Shown here: positions 9,082 to 23,249 of the stretch, piece by piece
Position numbering within the stretch: position 1 is the stretch's first letter
How the letters are laid out: the number at the start of each line of letters is the position of its first letter
From: Planktosalinus lacus
GTDB lineage: Bacteria > Bacteroidota > Bacteroidia > Flavobacteriales > Flavobacteriaceae
Reading direction: 5' to 3'
Length of the DNA: 64,000 nucleotides
Assembly: GCF_014640155.1 (NCBI RefSeq)
Contig: NZ_BMGK01000003.1
Location: forward strand, 62,001 to 126,000
The notes under the pieces: generated by a model
Database searches by the model: none
Seen by the model: the letters and a program-made list of their open reading frames with translations, nothing else
What the model was told of the DNA's origin: nothing
Program-made: the position numbers and the translations under genes

Positions 9082-9338
9082 CTACTAAAGATACCTAAAA
9101 AAACAGCATCTGCTAAATATTAACATTTACTTATAATTATAATAAAAATATAATCAGTTATGATTGTGAAATGTGTAAAAGAGCTATCCTCATTTTATGT
9201 TTTTTAAACTTGCTTGAAAGTTTCCATGCGCTAATGCTTGTAGTAGTTTACAAATGTTTTACAGAAATAAAAAAAGGTAGTTATGTCTTACTGTAATTGC
9301 CTGATTTAAACGCAAAAAGCACTGAAAATCAGTGCTTT
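9082..9338. other. Intergenic chromosome left of the integrated element
   Basis: No gene is seen. The only clear structure is the hairpin at 9316-9340 just before the attachment site. On the minus strand this would have been the terminator downstream of the initiator tRNA before the element inserted. Confidence 0.5.
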
Positions 9339-9340
9339 TG
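9316..9340 (-). terminator. Hairpin, likely the displaced original terminator of tRNA-fMet
   Basis: Perfect 11-bp stem AAAAGCACTGA / TCAGTGCTTTT with a 3-base loop, followed by a T-run on the minus strand. It now abuts the attL repeat and is about 13.6 kb from the tRNA. Before integration it would have lain directly 3' of the tRNA gene. Confidence 0.6.
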
Positions 9341-9362
9341 CTTTGTAGCGGGAACAGGACTG
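9339..9362. repeat. attL, partial duplicate of the tRNA-fMet 3' end
   Basis: Matches 22953-22976 at 23 of 24 positions. It contains the tRNA 3' acceptor strand and part of the T arm, but the sequence after GGACT diverges at once. This is the expected left junction when an element recombines into the 3' end of a minus-strand tRNA gene. Confidence 0.88.
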
Positions 9363-9496
9363 ACACCCCATTAAATGTTATTTTTTTTGCCCCCTTGTAA
9401 TCATTGATAAAACGGCTGTAACTTACTGTATATAAATAAAATAAAGTTTAAAGACACTCTAACTTGAATTAACCTGAATTAAGAAAAGTTAATCAT

Positions 9497-9518
9497 TTTA
9501 GGGGATTATTAGGGGATT
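9497..9518. repeat. Left copy of an exact 22-bp end repeat, putative integrase arm site
   Basis: Contains TTAGGGGATTATTAGGGG, itself a doubled ATTAGGGG-like unit. The same 22 bases occur at 22881-22902 in the same orientation near the other end. The position just upstream of the integrase gene suggests an arm-type binding site or an integrase promoter operator. Confidence 0.6.
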
Positions 9519-9548: not shown

Positions 9549-10844
9549 ATGAAAGTCAACTTCATCCTAAAAGGAAAAAATAACCCCACAAATATTGTTT
9601 GTCGGTTTAAGCCTTCTCAAAGTTTTGATTTCATGTGCGCAACTGGCATTTGGATAAAACGGACTGATTGGAGCCAAGCAAAACAATCTGTTAAGCCAAA
9701 GGCCAATTCAACTAATAAAGATCTTATCAACGCTAAGTTAAGATTATTGGAAACCACTATTGCTGATAAATGGCTAAATGATAATCTCAAAAATGTTCAA
9801 ATTTCAAAAGATTGGCTCAGAAACATTGTTGGCTCAAACCTCGGAACCGCTAACGTAAAAGACAAAAGAAAAATCTTTTTTTCAGATTGGGTGGAGAGTT
9901 ATGTTGATGACACAGAAACCCACATTTATAAGGGGAAATCATTATCTGATAGAACGGTGCAAAAGCACAAAACAACACTGGCAAAGCTTCACGCATTTGA
10001 AAATTATTCCAAGACAAAATACAGATTTGAAAATATTGACTTAAAATTTTATAGAGCTTTTTTAGAGTATTGTAGAAGTGAAGAAAAACTGTTGAATAAT
10101 ACTATCGGCAAGTATATTGCCGATATTAAAAAATGGTGTAAACTAATAGACTTAGAAGGATTACCTATCAACCAACAGTATAAACATTCAGAGTTTATGA
10201 CTGTCTCCAACAAAACCAAAGACACCTATCTATCTGAGGAAGAAATTAACAAGGTGTTCAACCATGACTTTTCAAAATCAACACGGTTAGATAACGCCCG
10301 GGACTTGTTTATTATAGGGTTGAGAACCGGATTGCGTATATCTGACTTTTTAAGACTGAAACAGATCAACCTTAAAGACGGATATATTGAAATTGAAACA
10401 ATGAAAACCGGAGAACCTGTTGTGATTCCCTTACACCACCAAATAAAAAGTATTTTAGAAAAAAGGGGTGGCCAACTTCCTTATTCAATTTCAGATCAAA
10501 AATTCAATTTGTATGTAAAAGAAGTGTGCGAGACTGCCGGGATAAATGAATTGATTGAAGGTTCTAAAAAAGTCAAATTAGAAGAGGAAGGAAAAACTAA
10601 AGTAAGATATCGAAAAGTTATAGGCAATTATCCCAAACACGACCTTATATCTTCACACACTTGTAGAAGATCCTTTGCTTCAAATTTATATGGAAAACTT
10701 CCTAATATGGTAATAATGGCCATAACCTCTCATAAAACAGAAAGTCAGTTTTTAAAGTATATCAAAATAACGAATACGGAACATGCAGAAACCCTGAAAA
10801 AGCATTGGGCAAATGAACAAGAAAAACAGCACATCAATGAATGA
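9549..10844 (+). CDS. Site-specific tyrosine recombinase (integrase)
   Basis: A 431-residue integrase of the type common on Bacteroidota elements. An N-terminal arm-binding-like region (about 1-100) and a SAM-like core-binding domain (about 110-215) precede the catalytic domain. The catalytic residues are visible: Arg in LRTGLRISDFLRL, the HxxR box as SHTCRRSFASN, the later His in ITSHKTESQ, and the nucleophile Tyr in FLKYIK. It starts 187 bases inside attL and reads into the element. It should cut and rejoin at the tRNA-fMet 3' end. The next ORF overlaps its 3' end. Confidence 0.95.
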   Translation: MKVNFILKGKNNPTNIVCRFKPSQSFDFMCATGIWIKRTDWSQAKQSVKPKANSTNKDLINAKLRLLETTIADKWLNDNLKNVQISKDWLRNIVGSNLGTANVKDKRKIFFSDWVESYVDDTETHIYKGKSLSDRTVQKHKTTLAKLHAFENYSKTKYRFENIDLKFYRAFLEYCRSEEKLLNNTIGKYIADIKKWCKLIDLEGLPINQQYKHSEFMTVSNKTKDTYLSEEEINKVFNHDFSKSTRLDNARDLFIIGLRTGLRISDFLRLKQINLKDGYIEIETMKTGEPVVIPLHHQIKSILEKRGGQLPYSISDQKFNLYVKEVCETAGINELIEGSKKVKLEEEGKTKVRYRKVIGNYPKHDLISSHTCRRSFASNLYGKLPNMVIMAITSHKTESQFLKYIKITNTEHAETLKKHWANEQEKQHINE

Positions 10845-15551: not shown

Positions 15552-18500
15552 ATGACCATAGAACAATATCTGGCAACGATCAACCAACGCTATAAACAAG
15601 GCAACGCAACCGAACATACTTTTAGAGGTGATCTTCAACAACTCCTGGAAACTTTGGTGCCGGAAATAAGAGCAACCAACGAACCCAAACGCCAAGCCTG
15701 CGGGGCACCTGACTATATTTTGTCTCGCAACGGCATTGACGTTGGGTATATCGAAGCAAAAGACATTGGTGATAAAGACCTGGAGGGAAAAAAGAGAACT
15801 GGGAACAAAGAACAATTTGATAGATACAAAGCTTCATTGCCAAATCTTGTTTTTACTGATTATATCGAATTTCATTTTTATCATTATCAGGATTTTGTTT
15901 GTAAAATTTCAATCGCAGAAATACAAAACAACACCCTTGTTCCATTGCCTGAAAACTTCAAAAGATTTGAAAATTTAATTAAGGATTTTTGTGTTCATAT
16001 AGGACTGACAATTAAAAGTCCCAAAAAACTGGCTGAAATGATGGCCGGAAAAGCCCGTTTACTGGCTGATGTTTTAAAAAATGCCCTGGAGAGTGATGAA
16101 GAGACACAAGCCAACACGACTCTAAAAGAACAAATGAATGCTTTTAAGGAAATATTGATACATGATATAACTCCCAAAGCTTTTGCCGATGTTTACGCAC
16201 AAACCATTGCCTATGGAATGTTTGCGGCCAGGTTGCACGACCCAACGATGAGCAACTTCTCCAGACAGGAGGCCGCAGAACTCATTCCAAAATCAAATCC
16301 CTTTTTACGAAAGTTGTTTGGTTACATTGCCGGCCCCGATATTGACGATCGTATAAAATGGATTGTAGAAAGCCTTTCCGAAGTGTTTTTGGCTTGTGAT
16401 GTGAGCCAACTTTTAAGAAATTACGGGAAATCCACCAAAATGGAAGACCCAATCATTCATTTTTACGAAACGTTTCTAAGTGAATATGACCCCAAGTTGC
16501 GCAAATCCCGGGGCGTTTGGTACACCCCGCAACCCGTTGTTGATTTTATTGTAAGAGCCGTTGATGATATATTAAAAACAGAATTTGACCTACCTGCCGG
16601 ACTGGCCGATACCTCAAAAACTACTATTAAGCTAAATTCACAGGTGCCTGACAAACGATCACCCTCAGGTTATAAAATGTATGACCAAGAAGTGCATAAA
16701 GTACAAATACTTGACCCCGCAACGGGAACGGGAACCTTTTTGGCCGAAACTGTAAAGCACATTTATAAACGCTTTGAAGGGCAACAAGGCATTTGGAGTA
16801 ATTATGTAGAGCAACATCTTATACCTCGTTTGAATGGTTTTGAGTTGCTAATGGCCTCATATGCCATGGCGCATTTAAAACTGGATTTATTGTTGACTGA
16901 AACCGGGTTTAAACCCACAACCAATCAAAGGCTAAGAGTTTTTTTAACAAACAGCCTGGAAGAAAGCCACCCCGACACCGGAACTCTGTTTTCAAACTGG
17001 TTAAGCACCGAAGCCAACGAAGCCAATCATATTAAACGTGATACCCCGGTGATGTGTGTGATTGGGAATCCCCCTTATAGTGGAGAAAGTGCAAATAAAG
17101 GTGACTGGATTATGAGTTTGATGGAAGATTACAAAAAAGAACCAGGCGGAAAGGAAAAACTCAAAGAACAAACCTCAAAATGGATAAATGATGATTACGT
17201 CAAGTTCTTACGTTATGGACAGCATTTCATAGAAAAAAATGGAAGTGGCGTTTTGGCTTTTATCAACCCGCATGGGTTTTTGGATAACCCTACTTTTAGA
17301 GGAATGCGATGGCACTTGCTTAAAACCTATGATAAAATATATACTTTAGATTTACATGGTAATAGCAAGAAGAAAGAAACTTGTCCAGATGGCTCTCCTG
17401 ACATCAATGTATTTGATATTATGCAAGGTGTGGCAATCACAATTTTTGTTAAAACAGGGAAGAAAAAGCTTAATGAACTTGGAGAAGTATATCATTATGA
17501 TTTATTCGGCAAGCGAGAATTTAAATATGAATTTCTAAACAATAATAATTTGTCTTCAATCGGTTTTAAAATAATAGAGAAAAAAGAACCGATGTTTTAC
17601 ATGGTACAAAGGGATTTAGATAAAGAAGAAGATTATTTGAAAGGTTTCTCTTTAAATGATTTGTTTATAGTTAATGGAAATGGAATTACAACTGCACACG
17701 ATACTTTTGTAATAAAAGACTCCAAAAAGGAACTTTTACAATGGTTTAATGATTTTAAAAACTCTGAGAGAAATGAGGACTTACTACACAATAAATTTCA
17801 AGTAAAAAAGAAAAAAGGCTGGAATATTCTTGAGGGTTACGATAACATCAAAAATGTAGAGGACTTAAATATATATGCCAAAAAATTAAGTTATAGACCG
17901 TTTGACGATAAATATATTTTTTATGAAGATAAATTAGTTTGGAGAACTGTTAAGAAGGTAATGAGTAATTATAATGGCAATAATTTTGGTTTATTGTGTC
18001 CAAAAGCTTTTAAAGACGCTTCTTTTTCGCATATTTTTATAACAGACAAAATTTCAGAAGCGATTTTTTTATCTTCACAAACGGGTTCTAATGCAATGAA
18101 TTTACCATTGTATATTTACCACGAAAATAAAAAACAGCAATCCATTGAAACTTATCCAAAGAGAACCCCAAACCTAAACCCGGAAATTCTCACACAAATT
18201 GAAGAAAAATTAGGGTTGGAGTTTGTTCCTGAAAGAGAAAACCGTGAAAGTACTTTTGCTCCCATTGAAATTTTAGATTATATCTATGCGGTTTTACACT
18301 CCTCTGAATACCGGGAAAAATACAAGGAGTTTTTGAAAATTGACTTCCCAAGAGTTCCCTATCCAACTGACCCGGTTGCGTTTTGGCATCTGGTTGCGTT
18401 GGGTGGCCAACTTAGGCAAATACATTTACTGGAAAGCCCGGTTGTAGAGCAATGCATCACAACTTACCCGGAAACAGGAGATAACATCATCACCCGGAAA

Positions 18501-18770
18501 CAAACTAAAAACAGCCCTGGTTATGAACCGTATGACAACGACACCGCAACGGGACGTGTTTGGATCAACGATACGCAATATTTTGACAACGTGCCCCACG
18601 TTGCGTGGGAATTTTACATTGGAGGCTACCAACCCGCCCAAAAATGGCTTAAAGACCGGGTTGGCCGTGAATTAAACTTTGATGATATTTTACACTATCA
18701 AAAAATTATTGTTGCGCTTTCGGAGACGGAGCGGTTGATGGGGGAGGTTGATGGGGTTTGGCAGGAGTAA
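15552..18770 (+). CDS. Single-chain restriction-modification enzyme (type IIG/ISP-like N6-adenine methylase with nuclease domain)
   Basis: A 1072-residue enzyme that would cut and methylate DNA from one chain. The N-terminal nuclease has a PD-(D/E)xK signature (Asp54, then Glu68-x-Lys70 in YIEAK). A helical connector leads to the methylase domain. SAM motif I is LDPATGTGTF near residue 388, and the N6-adenine catalytic motif IV is NPPY near residue 506. The C-terminal third (about 640-1072) is the likely target-recognition region, ending in the VWINDTQYF/VWEFYIGGYQPAQKWL pattern of type ISP-annotated proteins. There are no helicase motifs, unlike full type ISP enzymes. No separate methylase or specificity gene is nearby. 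Confidence 0.9.
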   Translation: MTIEQYLATINQRYKQGNATEHTFRGDLQQLLETLVPEIRATNEPKRQACGAPDYILSRNGIDVGYIEAKDIGDKDLEGKKRTGNKEQFDRYKASLPNLVFTDYIEFHFYHYQDFVCKISIAEIQNNTLVPLPENFKRFENLIKDFCVHIGLTIKSPKKLAEMMAGKARLLADVLKNALESDEETQANTTLKEQMNAFKEILIHDITPKAFADVYAQTIAYGMFAARLHDPTMSNFSRQEAAELIPKSNPFLRKLFGYIAGPDIDDRIKWIVESLSEVFLACDVSQLLRNYGKSTKMEDPIIHFYETFLSEYDPKLRKSRGVWYTPQPVVDFIVRAVDDILKTEFDLPAGLADTSKTTIKLNSQVPDKRSPSGYKMYDQEVHKVQILDPATGTGTFLAETVKHIYKRFEGQQGIWSNYVEQHLIPRLNGFELLMASYAMAHLKLDLLLTETGFKPTTNQRLRVFLTNSLEESHPDTGTLFSNWLSTEANEANHIKRDTPVMCVIGNPPYSGESANKGDWIMSLMEDYKKEPGGKEKLKEQTSKWINDDYVKFLRYGQHFIEKNGSGVLAFINPHGFLDNPTFRGMRWHLLKTYDKIYTLDLHGNSKKKETCPDGSPDINVFDIMQGVAITIFVKTGKKKLNELGEVYHYDLFGKREFKYEFLNNNNLSSIGFKIIEKKEPMFYMVQRDLDKEEDYLKGFSLNDLFIVNGNGITTAHDTFVIKDSKKELLQWFNDFKNSERNEDLLHNKFQVKKKKGWNILEGYDNIKNVEDLNIYAKKLSYRPFDDKYIFYEDKLVWRTVKKVMSNYNGNNFGLLCPKAFKDASFSHIFITDKISEAIFLSSQTGSNAMNLPLYIYHENKKQQSIETYPKRTPNLNPEILTQIEEKLGLEFVPERENRESTFAPIEILDYIYAVLHSSEYREKYKEFLKIDFPRVPYPTDPVAFWHLVALGGQLRQIHLLESPVVEQCITTYPETGDNIITRKQTKNSPGYEPYDNDTATGRVWINDTQYFDNVPHVAWEFYIGGYQPAQKWLKDRVGRELNFDDILHYQKIIVALSETERLMGEVDGVWQE

Positions 18771-18804: not shown

Positions 18805-19308
18805 ATGAAAAAATCTTTAAAGAAAGAAAACTACCTTGAGAGAAATGATATTGCGAAAATAATATCCAATTGGAACAAAGTCCAAGGACTTTATAGCCGA
18901 AAAGAATGGTCTTCAGTAATAATTCGAGCAGCAACCGCTGTTGAATTATCTGCAAATTTTGTGATAAGAAAGGAATTAGAAGGAGAAAGGAATTTAGATT
19001 CAGATTTTGTTAATCATTTATTACGTTGGGCAAATGGGATTCAAGGTAAATTTGACAAGCTTTTACTGCCAATATTTAAAGGAACAGACTATTATAATGA
19101 ATTAAAAAAACTACTTAAGCAAGTACAAGATATAAATAAAGAAAGAAATTCAGTTGTTCATAATGGACAGTTTAAAAGAAAAAGTACGGCGGACAAAATT
19201 GTTTTAGAAAGTGAAATAATAATCAACACTTTAGTTAGCAGGTATGAAGATTATTTTGATTTATCAGAAATTTATGGAAAAGAGAGCTTAAAAGATTCAA
19301 AAAAATAA
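18805..19308 (+). CDS. HEPN-like protein, putative ribonuclease
   Basis: A 167-residue, mostly helical protein. The HEPN nuclease signature Rx4H is present as RNSVVH (Arg114, His119) in the helix KERNSVVHNGQF, matching the R-polar-x3-H pattern of HEPN RNases. HEPN proteins are common as toxins and abortive-infection effectors. No membrane segment is seen. It starts 34 bases after the restriction-methylase stop, so it is probably in the same transcript. No partner nucleotidyltransferase (MNT) gene is next to it. Family assignment rests on the motif and predicted helicity, not on a database match. Confidence 0.6.
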   Translation: MKKSLKKENYLERNDIAKIISNWNKVQGLYSRKEWSSVIIRAATAVELSANFVIRKELEGERNLDSDFVNHLLRWANGIQGKFDKLLLPIFKGTDYYNELKKLLKQVQDINKERNSVVHNGQFKRKSTADKIVLESEIIINTLVSRYEDYFDLSEIYGKESLKDSKK

Positions 19309-19423
19309 AATTAATATTGTGGTTAATCTTACTGATAAGGACAAGAATAGCAAAAATGAATAACTAAAAAATACGCGACCCAGAGTTTATATAATAAACT
19401 AAACATATATAAATAAAAATAGT

Positions 19424-20104
19424 ATGAGCGAATTAATTGGAAAAGGTTCTAAAGAAAGATGGTACCCTATTCCTATACATAAAATAAAGAATCATTTATC
19501 AAAATATTGTTTTGATCACACCATTAATTCTGACTCAAAATACATCATAGCAAACATTAGTTATAACATTCAATATATTGAATATTTAAGAAAAACTTTA
19601 AATGAACTAAATCTTTCAGAAGTATTGTTAATTCAGACAATAAAAAGCTTTATAATCATTAGCACGTCAATAATAGAAGCTATTTTTTACATAATATGTT
19701 GCAAAGAGAATTTAAGAAAAAAAATAGTTTGGAATGAAATTAAGACAGTAGGAAAATCTGAGTTTTTCCTTGAAGGTAATTCTCTTAAAAGCGAAACTAA
19801 AATCTATAAGAAAAATACAGTAACTGAATTTGAATCAATGACTTTTGATCAAATGATAAAGAAAATCGAGAGAAAAAAAGTGTTAAATCAAGAAAATCAA
19901 TTTTTTAAAGATTTAAATCATTTAAGAAAATTAAGAAATAAGATTCATCTTCAAGAATCCAAAACAATAGAAAAAACAGATTATAATTCATTTTGGAGAC
20001 CTGAATACACCTTGTCAAAAAAGAATTTGCGACTATTATTACTTGATGAAATTTTTAAAACAGATAAAAGCAGCATTGAATTATTTAAGTTTTTAAAGAA
20101 TTAA
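19424..20104 (+). CDS. HEPN-like hypothetical protein
   Basis: A 226-residue protein with a hydrophobic helix around residues 67-93 (LLIQTIKSFIIISTSIIEAIFYIICC). A late helix HLRKLRNKIHLQE has the candidate HEPN residues Arg168/Arg171 and His175 (Rx6H from Arg168). 'LRKLRNKIHL' helices of this kind are frequent in HEPN-fold families that bind or cut RNA. The gene is clearly A+T rich and follows the previous gene in the same direction after 115 bases. Function is not established. The HEPN call is weaker here than for its neighbours. Confidence 0.5.
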   Translation: MSELIGKGSKERWYPIPIHKIKNHLSKYCFDHTINSDSKYIIANISYNIQYIEYLRKTLNELNLSEVLLIQTIKSFIIISTSIIEAIFYIICCKENLRKKIVWNEIKTVGKSEFFLEGNSLKSETKIYKKNTVTEFESMTFDQMIKKIERKKVLNQENQFFKDLNHLRKLRNKIHLQESKTIEKTDYNSFWRPEYTLSKKNLRLLLLDEIFKTDKSSIELFKFLKN

Positions 20105-20202: not shown

Positions 20203-20688
20203 TTGATAATTTTGGGATTAATTAATATTATTTTTATGATTGAGTTTTTATATGACATGACTTATGAAGAGCACTTGTTTACATTGTATACAGCATTTGT
20301 AAGTCTTTTAGTTCATATAGTTTTCAAATTTTTTATTAAGCTAAAATTAAATAAAATACTCAATCTAATTTTAAAAAATTTATTTTTATCCTTAACAATT
20401 GTATTAGTATTATTTGTTATTATCAATTACAAAGGGGAAATTAATCTAATCATTGTAAGTCTCTTGGCTGTAATAATTGTAATGTTATTTGGCTTATTTA
20501 TTTTAAAATATATTCTAAAAATGAGAAAGCAAATACATAAAGAACAATTCGAAATTTTAAAAATTGCATTAGACAGTGATAAAGAAATTTTAGAGAAATT
20601 ATTTGATAAAGATGTTGGAGCTTTGAATATGTTGCTTGATAAAATTAAGAATGAGAATAAACCTATGAATGGGGAAAAAGAATCTTAA
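20203..20688 (+). CDS. Hypothetical membrane protein
   Basis: About 161 residues with four hydrophobic stretches (near residues 1-15, 28-46, 50-72 and 78-102) and a charged C-terminal tail, so probably a small integral membrane protein. The only start in frame is a TTG at 20203. The frame is open about 84 bases further upstream without a canonical start and reads like protein (PHVHWYFNIKKSLF). An ATG at 20132 in another frame runs to a stop at 20206. Either a non-standard start or a frameshift is possible. It lies 33 bases before the next HEPN-like gene and may work with it. Confidence 0.55.
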   Translation: MIILGLINIIFMIEFLYDMTYEEHLFTLYTAFVSLLVHIVFKFFIKLKLNKILNLILKNLFLSLTIVLVLFVIINYKGEINLIIVSLLAVIIVMLFGLFILKYILKMRKQIHKEQFEILKIALDSDKEILEKLFDKDVGALNMLLDKIKNENKPMNGEKES

Positions 20689-20721: not shown

Positions 20722-21546
20722 ATGAAAAACGATAGAAATTTTAATCTTGATCAAATTTTATCAAATTTAAGAGATTCAATTGATGAGTTCCAACCTAAAT
20801 TAAAATTTCCTGATGAACTTAAATCATCAATTGAACGACTCGTTAAAAGTTTAAAAGTCTTTGAAGAAAACAAAATAGAAATCAACATTGACTATGATGC
20901 ATTTAAGGCTATTGGTGAAAGGCTCAATGAATATACACAAAACGTTTCTGTTCATACATTGCTGGTTTCAAGACACGGATGGTTTATAGATTTAATAGCT
21001 CCAATAGATATGCCGGCAAATGCCTATACTTTGTTTAAGTCAGGAAATATAAAGGCAGGAGACAAGGTAATTGGAGATTATTATCATGAATATATTGATG
21101 ATGTATTTGATACACTTAAAAAAAGACATAAACGAAGAAAATTTATCCTTGAAGATATTTTGAATGGATATAAAGAAAAGAATTACCGGATGATCATACC
21201 TTGTATTTTTACCCAAATAGATGGGATAAGTAATGACTTTACTAAAAAAGCTTTTTTTACAAAAAAAGAAAAAAAATACAATCATTTACCTGAATTTTCA
21301 GCATTAATTAAAGCAGAAACTGAAGGCTTTTTAGATTATTACATTTCACCACTTCAAAACCAAACTCCAATAATGGTAAATGAAAAATATTTAGGCGGTT
21401 TCCCTTGTAAATTTAATAGACATCAAATTATACACGGTTCTTCAGTTAGTTATGGAAACAAAACAAATAGCTTAAAGGCAATTTCTTTTTTAAAGTATTT
21501 ATCTGACATTCTAACAAGCTTAAAAACAAAAGGAAAAATAGCTTGA
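20722..21546 (+). CDS. HEPN-like protein with NRHxxxHG motif
   Basis: A 274-residue, mostly helical protein. The C-terminal part has FNRHQIIHG, an Rx4H motif (Arg233, His238) as in HEPN nucleases, followed by the helix KAISFLKYLSDILTSL. The N-terminal half has no recognised domain; it contains VSRHGWFI and a basic segment KKRHKRRKF. The gene pairs with the membrane-protein gene 33 bases upstream. Its last 25 codons are repeated, diverged, at 22803-22880 beyond the abi gene, so a second copy once existed here. A role in phage defence is inferred from the motif and neighbours only. Confidence 0.6.
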   Translation: MKNDRNFNLDQILSNLRDSIDEFQPKLKFPDELKSSIERLVKSLKVFEENKIEINIDYDAFKAIGERLNEYTQNVSVHTLLVSRHGWFIDLIAPIDMPANAYTLFKSGNIKAGDKVIGDYYHEYIDDVFDTLKKRHKRRKFILEDILNGYKEKNYRMIIPCIFTQIDGISNDFTKKAFFTKKEKKYNHLPEFSALIKAETEGFLDYYISPLQNQTPIMVNEKYLGGFPCKFNRHQIIHGSSVSYGNKTNSLKAISFLKYLSDILTSLKTKGKIA

Positions 21547-21555
21547 TTTAGGAAA

Positions 21556-21621
21556 TATGAAAATATAGTACATTATCAAAAAGTAATTGTTGCTCAAACT
21601 GAAACGGAGCCGTTGATGGTT
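21556..21621 (+). pseudogene. Remnant of a second restriction-methylase 3' end
   Basis: Translates as YENIVHYQKVIVAQTETEP..., matching the end of the intact enzyme (FDDILHYQKIIVALSETER at about 18676-18735) with several substitutions. It starts ten bases after the HEPN-like gene stop and has no upstream body. It is a scrap left by recombination or gene replacement. Confidence 0.75.
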
Positions 21622-21623
21622 TT

Positions 21624-22526
21624 TTACGCCCACAATAATTGATTTCTCCAATTTTCAGAAAATCCCATTTCAGCTAACCTATCTGGATTATTATTAAATA
21701 GGCTAACAAGACTTTCTTTTGTGGTGTGACCTGGAGAAACTTTGTTTAATATGTATATGATGCAAGACAAAGAATAATAAACAGACATATCATTATTTGG
21801 TATTAAAATAAAATTACTATTTGGCTTAGATAATTGCTTTGGAGGTATATGAATATTTCTGTTCCATAATCTACTATGATGGGCGCAAATATTTCTTACC
21901 ACATTAAATGAGTTCATCCAACTTTTTAAAAAATTTTCATTAGGAAGATCAAATTCGATTGCAAGTCTTTTTTTACAATCTAAATCATTTTTCAAGTTGC
22001 CATAAATTTTAGACAAAGTTCCAAGCGACAATATTTCAAAAGTTTTATAACAAGGCGGTCTATCTTGGGAGCCATAATTTTCAAAATGAGTTTCAATAAA
22101 TACTTCTTTTGATCTATTAAGCTCTTTATCAATATCTTTTATTGACTCTTCGAAAAAATCCATATTAAAAAATAGATTTTTGTTCTCATACCACCACCAA
22201 TTATTATTTTCAATTGAAATATAATATATCATTTTAGTTCTTAATGCAACTTCAATTCTTTCAATGGCATCAAAAATTAAGAGTCTCAATTTTCTATCAA
22301 ATGTATATAGGGATACAACTGTTTCAAATGTTGTTCCTTTTTTAAAAAGATGCTTTTTTTTATCTGCTTGTAGTTCCCACCAAAAACCCTGTAATCTAAA
22401 ATAGCTTATATTTTTTAAATATTGTTTAGCTAAATTATCATCTTCAATAACTAAACCTCTTTGCTTTAGTTGCTTGATTTGATTATCAATAGTCAGAATA
22501 TTTTTTGGATAGTCTTCTTTGCTCAA
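21624..22526 (-). CDS. Abi family protein (Abi_2; AbiD/AbiF-like)
   Basis: Abortive-infection family protein of about 300 residues. The Abi_2 domain begins at LTIDNQIKQLKQRGLVI and contains YFRLQGFWW, FDRKLRLLIFDAIERIEVALRT and the HEPN-type box VVRNICAHHSRLWNR (Rx4H). The frame is open to a TTG at 22643, but those first 39 codons include an atypical G+C-rich stretch. The conserved domain starts just after a TTG at 22526, so this start is preferred; no ATG is available. It runs against all other cargo genes and lies between two gene remnants. The family is known to abort phage infection. Confidence 0.88.
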   Translation of the reverse strand: MSKEDYPKNILTIDNQIKQLKQRGLVIEDDNLAKQYLKNISYFRLQGFWWELQADKKKHLFKKGTTFETVVSLYTFDRKLRLLIFDAIERIEVALRTKMIYYISIENNNWWWYENKNLFFNMDFFEESIKDIDKELNRSKEVFIETHFENYGSQDRPPCYKTFEILSLGTLSKIYGNLKNDLDCKKRLAIEFDLPNENFLKSWMNSFNVVRNICAHHSRLWNRNIHIPPKQLSKPNSNFILIPNNDMSVYYSLSCIIYILNKVSPGHTTKESLVSLFNNNPDRLAEMGFSENWRNQLLWA

Positions 22527-22537
22527 AATTAAAAAAA

Positions 22538-22590
22538 AAGACCCGCCTGGGTGCGCTGATCGAGGGAAGCGTGGCGAGTTCGATTGGAAC
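22538..22590. other. G+C-rich patch upstream of the abi gene
   Basis: About 50 bases of clearly higher G+C than their surroundings. Read on the plus strand they give the short open stretch RLGALIEGSVASSIGTKII before a stop, which may be the tail of a lost gene. I cannot identify the source. Confidence 0.3.
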
Positions 22591-22802
22591 AAAGATAATA
22601 TAAGATATCTGTTTAGAAGTGTAGTTGATGTTGTTTTCGACAAAATACATTATATATTAACATATTCTTGTGAAAATGTTAAAAAATACTCTCACTCTTT
22701 AATAATAAGCTTTTCAATTCTTCTATTGTATATTTAATAAACTCTTTTAGGTCTTGTTATCTGTAAAAAAAAAACAATCTTGGTGAGCGTAAGAAAAAAT
22801 AT

Positions 22803-22880
22803 TTCTTGGAGACAATTTCATTCTTAAAGCATCTATCAGACATATTAACAAGCCTAAAAATAAAAGGAAAATTCACTTAA
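22803..22880 (+). pseudogene. Remnant of a second copy of the NRHxxxHG HEPN-like gene, 3' end
   Basis: Reads ETISFLKHLSDILTSLKIKG before a TAA, against KAISFLKYLSDILTSLKTKG at the end of the intact gene. There is no start and no body. With the restriction-methylase scrap at 21556 it brackets the abi gene. Confidence 0.78.
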
Positions 22881-22902
22881 TTTAGGGGATTATTAGGGGA
22901 TT
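22881..22902. repeat. Right copy of the exact 22-bp end repeat, putative integrase arm site
   Basis: Identical to 9497-9518, in the same orientation. It lies 50 bases inside attR, while the left copy lies 134 bases inside attL. This asymmetric pairing is typical of arm-type integrase sites. Confidence 0.6.
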
Positions 22903-22912
22903 TAAGGTATAA

Positions 22913-22935
22913 AAAAAGAGCTAAATAGCTTTTTA
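22913..22935 (-). terminator. Element-borne terminator downstream of tRNA-fMet
   Basis: Stem AGCTA / TAGCT with two-base loop, extended by a G-U pair and A-T pairs, followed on the minus strand by a T7 run. It lies 26 bases 3' of the tRNA end, inside the element. It apparently replaces the original terminator at 9316-9340. Confidence 0.55.
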
Positions 22936-22960
22936 TCAACCATTTAGCCCTATTGCTTAG

Positions 22961-23033
<73 letters not shown>

Positions 23034-23064: not shown

Positions 23065-23129
23065 ACTCGAACCTGTGTCCGCCTTTGGCGGATATGAGCC
23101 CGACGAGCTACCTACTGCTCTTTCCCGCG
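23065..23129 (-). pseudogene. Degenerate initiator tRNA copy
   Basis: The 5' half (acceptor 5' strand, D arm, anticodon loop with CAT) and part of the T arm match the intact tRNA 31 bases away. The 3' acceptor strand is missing. The 3' side of the anticodon stem and the variable region are replaced by the palindrome TCCGCC-TTT-GGCGGA (23078-23092). It cannot fold as a tRNA. Confidence 0.8.
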
Positions 23130-23249
23130 ATATGGATTTAAAAGAAAAAATGTTTTTTTAATGTCAACCATACATTGACCATCTTTCCTTTTGGATTGCA
23201 AATATACAACAGATTTCTATTTCTGCAATACGAATGAATAAAACTTTCT

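Follow-up and report, generated by a model that had tools for sequence, protein, structure and literature searches.

A probable mosaic join around an AbiF cassette at the right end of a tRNA-Met integrative element in Planktosalinus lacus

The described systems closest to the locus analyzed here are integrative elements that accrete in tandem at tRNA genes, hotspots of phages, satellites and chromosomes in which variable defence genes lie between conserved anchors near an attachment site, and AbiF RNA-toxin systems. With regard to the last of these, PMC12373285 reports that the RNA of the C. difficile AbiF system neutralises the toxin by binding, and that PbAbiF (PDB 8vz6), from Prevotellaceae, forms a homodimer to which two copies of the RNA are bound.

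The window, i.e., the whole 64,000-nucleotide stretch of P. lacus DNA that was analyzed, resembles tandem arrays in having attachment cores at a tRNA 3´ end, an integrase at the left end and terminal repeats, and in that a congener carries a second element stacked at this tRNA; it differs from them in that no more than a piece of the second element's end would be left, with its integrase end gone. As in defence hotspots, variable defence genes would lie between conserved anchors near an attachment site, but in relatives of the element no pair of conserved anchors was shown to enclose different cargo. The combination of an Abi_2 protein carrying an R-x4-H motif with a small structured RNA that lies directly upstream and has a U-run at its end is shared with AbiFCd-RCd22 and PbAbiF. 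The window RNA has the two-helix layout of Rfam RF03085, whereas RCd22 contains two RNA motifs and the window a single one, which scores below the Rfam cutoff. The relevant features, in window positions, are the following:

9345–9361, no strand assigned: left attachment core GTAGCGGGAACAGGACT, a copy of the tRNA-Met 3´ end (direct repeat D16)
9495–9518, plus strand: left copy of the terminal repeat, TTTTAGGGGATTATTAGGGGATT, resembling an integrase arm site (putative role; repeat D6)
9549–10844, plus strand: tyrosine recombinase (integrase), 431 aa (Pfam Phage_integrase, 4.2e-11; Phage_int_SAM_5, 1.7e-8)
15552–18770, plus strand: Type IIG / Type ISP restriction-methylase of 1072 aa, related to scrap 1 but intact (Pfam Type_ISP_C, 6.1e-79; PADLOC REase_MTase_IIG PDLC03610, 1202.7 bits)
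18805–19308, plus strand: 167-aa protein with a weak likeness to the HEPN portion of Csm6 (PADLOC Csm6, 2.2e-5)
20203–20688, plus strand: 161-aa protein, membrane-like by eye, with a relative in the congener G397 (tblastn match in L117, 44%, 4.4e-20)
20722–21546, plus strand: intact HEPN-motif gene HEPN_A, 274 aa (motif N-R-H-x3-H-G)
21547–21552, plus strand: TTTAGG stub directly 3´ of the HEPN_A stop, identical to the bases with which the right terminal repeat opens (end of repeat D1)
21553–21619, plus strand: scrap 1, what is left of a second Type ISP C-terminus (repeat D2)
21624–22526, minus strand: AbiF (Abi_2) toxin gene, intact (Pfam Abi_2, 1.1e-54; PADLOC AbiD, 4.6e-73; PDB 8vz6, 2.7e-50 over residues 5–298 of 299)
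22535–22587, minus strand: abiF-like non-coding RNA with a U-run, upstream of abiF (model R1; Rfam RF03085 below cutoff)
22780–22880, plus strand: scrap 2, the final ~28 codons and the stop of another HEPN gene, HEPN_B (repeat D1)
22881–22902, plus strand: right copy of the terminal repeat, TTTAGGGGATTATTAGGGGATT (repeat D6; exact core copies in G263 and G398)
22960–23033, minus strand: tRNA-Met (ARAGORN; Rfam tRNA, 67.3 bits; D16)

To judge from these features, both scraps lie at the right end of an integrative element of ~13.6 kb in tRNA-Met. A tyrosine recombinase gene adjoins an attachment core duplicating the 3´ end of the tRNA, which is the arrangement by which tRNA-targeted integrative elements are recognized; the right core (22960–22976) is the 3´ end of tRNA-Met itself, with the attachment site ~75 bases beyond scrap 2. 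The direct repeat that includes the cores (9335–9361 vs. 22950–22976) is 93% identical and that of the terminal repeats (9483–9518 vs. 22867–22902) 86%. The terminal repeat was present in exact form in three of the five genomes of the genus and, in the sample of 397 family genomes, had no genuine match beyond the genus. Two-mismatch matches in G204 and G283 were dropped because they were at the level of a backward-pattern control, which also matches the true sites since the repeat read backwards overlaps itself. In the viral contigs, searches for the terminal repeat, the integrase and the restriction gene each gave no match. Integrases 30–33% identical to that of the window were seen near Type ISP restriction genes in Formosa (L039, 8486–9730) and Alistipes (L056, 14270–15514). 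A second, broken tRNA-Met copy, containing the hairpin TCCGCCTTTGGCGGA, is located at 23090–23139 of the window, and broken copies likewise flank the tRNA in congeners.

The sequence-only reading had taken the flanks of the abi gene for diverged copies of the restriction-methylase and HEPN gene ends. This held when local alignment scores were compared with those of 100 first-order Markov randomisations of the query: scrap 1 (21553–21619) matched 18675–18741 of the restriction gene with 76% identity over 67 nt (score 54, randomised maximum 35), and scrap 2 (22780–22886) matched the HEPN_A 3´ end (21446–21552) with 76% over 107 nt (87, randomised maximum 40). Scrap 2 was thereby confirmed as the diverged tail of a second HEPN gene, and it was recovered independently by an HEPN protein search of the family genomes (28 residues, 68%, E 9.4e-4). 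Scrap 1 also proved to be a second restriction tail, but it does not strictly comprise the last codons of the gene, as it corresponds to residues 1042–1063 of the 1072 in the restriction protein and ends nine codons before the gene end.

The two scraps have diverged in different ways. In scrap 2, the same residue as in HEPN_A was found at 18 of 25 codons, while 13.6 would be expected under random placement of its 17 changes (P 0.005); over the 28-codon stretch this silent bias was weaker (P 0.02). Since scrap 2 differs from HEPN_A mostly silently, HEPN_B would have diverged largely as a working gene. Such a bias was absent from scrap 1 (P 0.19), whose translation, KYENIVHYQKVIVAQTETEPLM, kept 13 of 22 residues of the resident gene (NFDDILHYQKIIVALSETERLM); among the 57 restriction tails compared, that of L040 was more similar (15/22). 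Three of the nine replacements in scrap 1 are common in these tails (Y in 15, E in 26 and T in 16), four are rare (1–2 of 57) and two (N and P) occur in none of them, which points to some decay. Given the silent bias of scrap 2, and the family residues of scrap 1 together with its likeness to L040, the scraps appear to be partly decayed descendants of separate, once-working genes. As they stand, the two scraps are dead, without present function. Apart from the terminal repeat itself and one chance-like match (L003), which sits within an unrelated ORF, the genome of the window contained no second copy of 21547–22950. An open 25-codon tail on the minus strand upstream of the AbiF RNA (22683–22760, QDLKEFIKYTIEELKSLLLKSESIF) is a possible third scrap; it had no relatives among the loci of abi relatives compared.

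Restriction 3´ ends without the remainder of the gene also occur elsewhere in the family. Of 18 family genomes with a match to this end, seven contained it only in a short ORF (84–287 aa) and 11 in an ORF of at least 1061 aa. Among 60 restriction loci from the genome contigs, three showed 3´-end remnants and one an N-terminal remnant, a count biased toward 3´ ends because the C-terminal search pattern favours them. Since short stand-alone 3´-end ORFs exist in the family, the 22 residues of scrap 1 are too few to distinguish a complete restriction gene from a Type_ISP_C gene that is short and stands alone, and cannot demonstrate an origin in the former. Stand-alone ORFs of 239–272 aa in which the Type ISP specificity domain is represented by its C-terminal half alone (Pfam Type_ISP_C) were observed in L165 (1489–2307), L166 (1489–2208), L167 (973–1719), L168 (919–1719) and L087 (9920–10657), and by eye they begin with a short start resembling that of the restriction gene. 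Those of L087 and L167 are 59% identical and, by eye, have flanking genes in common, and may therefore represent a kept gene rather than debris. In L095 (Flavobacteriaceae), the restriction 3´ end is duplicated around a Fic gene (224–321 and 1533–1630; 98 nt, 91%, 1309 apart), the second copy being joined to a truncated AlbA-like ORF (25.2 bits, just below the Pfam cutoff).

HEPN ribonucleases are marked by an R-x4-6-H motif. In HEPN_A, N-R-H-x3-H-G is invariant across the four proteins aligned, i.e., HEPN_A itself and three distant plasmid proteins. Neither Pfam nor NCBIfam gave a match to HEPN_A, and single-sequence structure prediction yielded a useless model (mean pLDDT 32.5). Relatives were absent from the genome contigs, viral contigs and phages; seven plasmid records contained them (24–27%), and a four-row profile detected one relative in 388 family genomes, in G110. 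Besides scrap 2, the only match of the HEPN protein search of 397 family genomes, in G230 (32% over 78 residues, 210-aa ORF), was set aside as chance-like. Two small proteins encoded within 18805–20104 gave weak matches to CARF-HEPN or Csm6 HEPN models (2.2e-5 and 0.0024).

It had further been proposed that the restriction and HEPN genes travel together. None of the 60 restriction loci, of which 45 span the whole gene and 32 include at least 5 kb downstream, contained relatives of the 167-, 226-, 161- or 274-aa proteins, as determined by tblastn and by profile and phmmer searches of ORFs of at least 80 aa. Nor was a restriction-gene match detected at E 0.05 near the HEPN relatives in G110 and four plasmid stretches, and different genes lie downstream of the restriction gene in G263. 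No HEPN gene follows the G397 relative of the 161-aa gene, and a contig end hides the preceding DNA. A linked restriction–HEPN module is not supported by these sequence comparisons, and the claim of joint travel was not upheld.

The gene between the scraps is, as had been read, an Abi_2 gene on the minus strand. Its start is likely the TTG at 22526, which gives 300 aa, equal to the 8vz6 chain length, rather than position 22643: an ORF read from the latter begins upstream of the non-coding RNA and runs through it, and its first ~40 codons align with stops in other abi relatives and are therefore conserved DNA, not coding. Relatives of the protein were found in 39 of 397 family genomes and in none of the viral contigs, and in 29 abi loci with ~1.5 kb flanks no restriction tail was detected beside abi at E 1e-3.

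The RNA upstream of abiF was identified with a model, R1, built without the window, which found 22535–22587 on the minus strand (43.6 bits, E 1.2e-10). This was the sole match in the window up to E 10 and the sole one in the genome at E 0.001. R1 matched 21 of the 29 abi loci (12 of them used to build it) and none of the 60 restriction loci at E 0.01, with one at 0.35. The motif, picked by hand-chosen anchors, was located in 26 of the 29 abi relatives and in the window, and left no trace in L034–L036, the most distant ones. In an alignment of 21 distinct rows (A1, omitting L014, with its long loop, as well as L009 and L020–L023, identical to L010), 83.9% of cells pair in a two-helix structure vs. 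a shuffled mean of 68.3, with 0 of 500 shuffles as high, and double changes occur at eight of nine pairs; in 12 rows without the window (A4, 12 of the 26 loci), all cells pair and double changes occur at four of 11 pairs. The Rfam abiF model RF03085 scored 23.5 bits at 22541–22578 (minus strand), below its cutoff of 37, and gave no match either in 17 abi loci or, with E values as high as 1 admitted, in a 14.3-kb scan of the whole element. A literature search for the abiF RNA motif in Bacteroid- hosts retrieved no paper. A complete AbiF RNA-toxin cassette apparently lies between the scraps and, by analogy with the studied AbiF systems, may be an RNA-held HEPN ribonuclease, which the RNA would keep silent until infection.

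Congeners show what else has inserted at this tRNA-Met, which is located between an AsmA-like gene and fhs. The left flank in G263 runs into a restriction gene 71% identical to that of the window, followed by a 213-aa gene, minus-strand ORFs, the exact terminal repeat and a tRNA-Met-like remnant; beyond this come a serine-recombinase element with HsdM, HsdS and HsdR, the intact tRNA-Met and, two genes further on, fhs. This layout, which is spread over two contigs (a TolC-side and an fhs-side flank) with 18 common terminal bases, shows that two elements stack at this tRNA. The cargo before the exact repeat in G263 differs from that of the window, and the scraps are not common anchors there; the two proteins tested from the G263 stretch between the restriction gene and the repeat (L137, 10736–11784; L120, 14654–15319) had no confident family match. 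In G398, the terminal repeat also lies beside tRNA-Met and the contig begins exactly at TTTAGG, while in G042 and G397 tRNA-Met adjoins the left-flank gene in the other orientation, and a clean empty site did not emerge from these sequences.

The sequence around the scraps bears on how the join arose. The stop codon of scrap 2 directly abuts the terminal repeat (TTTAGGGGATTATTAGGGG; also given as TTTAGGGG), and its match to HEPN_A extends six bases, TTTAGG, beyond both stop codons. The homologies of the HEPN_A tail and of scrap 1 abut exactly at 21552/21553. Since TTTAGG comes straight after the HEPN_A stop and gives way abruptly to scrap 1, we read HEPN_A as having stood at a former right end of the element, and the simplest reading of this sequence would be that the join was formed inside the terminal repeat. 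By composition, the chance of a given 6-mer at one place is ~3e-4, a figure to be read in the light of the post hoc noticing of the match, and six shared bases after a stop are by themselves slender evidence.

Taken together, we consider a composite right end, formed by stacking of a related element at tRNA-Met and a deletion, with the AbiF cassette between the tails, to have a probability of roughly 0.5. The resident element would formerly have ended after HEPN_A, at a terminal repeat starting with TTTAGG. The right end of a second, related element, with its restriction tail and an HEPN_B tail flush with the same repeat, would have been stacked beyond it, and a deletion starting within the old terminal repeat and reaching into the second restriction gene would then have taken out the former end along with the bulk of the second element, so that TTTAGG came to adjoin the final codons of that restriction gene. 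The AbiF cassette may have been placed between the two tails before or after this deletion. The abutting homologies at 21552/21553, the occurrence of TTTAGG behind each of the HEPN stops and of the repeat close to either end of the element, the attachment cores with tRNA-Met, the stacking in G263, the mostly silent changes in scrap 2 and the family residues in scrap 1 argue for this account. Counting against it, the elements stacked in G263 are not the same pair, neither an intact second element nor an intermediate turned up, the silent bias is weaker over 28 codons and absent from scrap 1, two replacements in scrap 1 are unique to it among the tails compared, and the Rfam abiF model stays below its cutoff.

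The proposal that a paralogous restriction–HEPN block had its middle replaced by abi fares less well. A tandem block of this kind beside the resident one, with both 3´ ends left behind, would account for the order and strand of the scraps, which copy those of the resident genes, as well as for their similar divergence (76%), and the restriction 3´ end repeated around Fic in L095 offers a parallel. Against it, the block occurred in none of the 60 restriction loci, the TTTAGG stub between HEPN_A and scrap 1 is left unexplained, and equal divergence over 67 and 107 nt is a weak sign of common origin. We regard replacement of the middle by abi as unlikely. As for a single paralogous block, the right end of a related element would indeed carry both tails, while an intact block was not found. 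It is similarly doubtful that the scraps never belonged to one block, scrap 1 having come with the AbiF cassette from another defence island and having been brought by illegitimate joining next to scrap 2, which would be the former end of an HEPN gene of this element family. Short restriction 3´-end ORFs are common enough in the family (7/18 genomes), their remnants outnumber N-terminal ones, and 22 residues would fit a stand-alone Type_ISP_C gene equally well; but the 3-to-1 remnant count carries the search bias described above, and none of the 29 abi loci showed a restriction tail in its ~1.5-kb flanks at E 1e-3.

An origin of the scraps in a local duplication of the ends of the resident genes, whose copies then decayed neutrally where they lay, is economical, as one lineage suffices and the scraps match the resident genes. 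It is nevertheless quite improbable, given that the changes in scrap 2 are mostly silent and that scrap 1 is equally or more like other restriction genes than the resident one. Chance similarity can be given next to no credence, short as the stretches are, with scores far outside the randomised range, translations in frame and scrap 2 recovered by the protein search. The composite end left by stacking and deletion is hence our preferred account, and the locus is most likely a mosaic join from stacked elements rather than proof of a device for exchanging defence genes.

The broader suggestion that the element serves as an exchange site for defence cassettes is unproven. In one version, the terminal repeat would be a working joint at which the last-gene defence cargo is swapped, with blocks ending flush with TTTAGG and leftover 3´ ends marking the swaps. 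We hold this to be improbable; if true, it would explain the repeated 3´ ends around Fic in L095 and the start of the G398 contig at TTTAGG. If, instead, stacking and deletion built this end, the scraps would be a dated record of how the cargo end of one element was rebuilt, and a caution against taking two adjacent gene ends for a functional module. The AbiF cassette is a more useful result than the scraps: its form of RNA is common upstream of abi genes in the family and beyond the reach of the present abiF model of Rfam, and RNA-toxin pairs in these bacteria are therefore easily overlooked.
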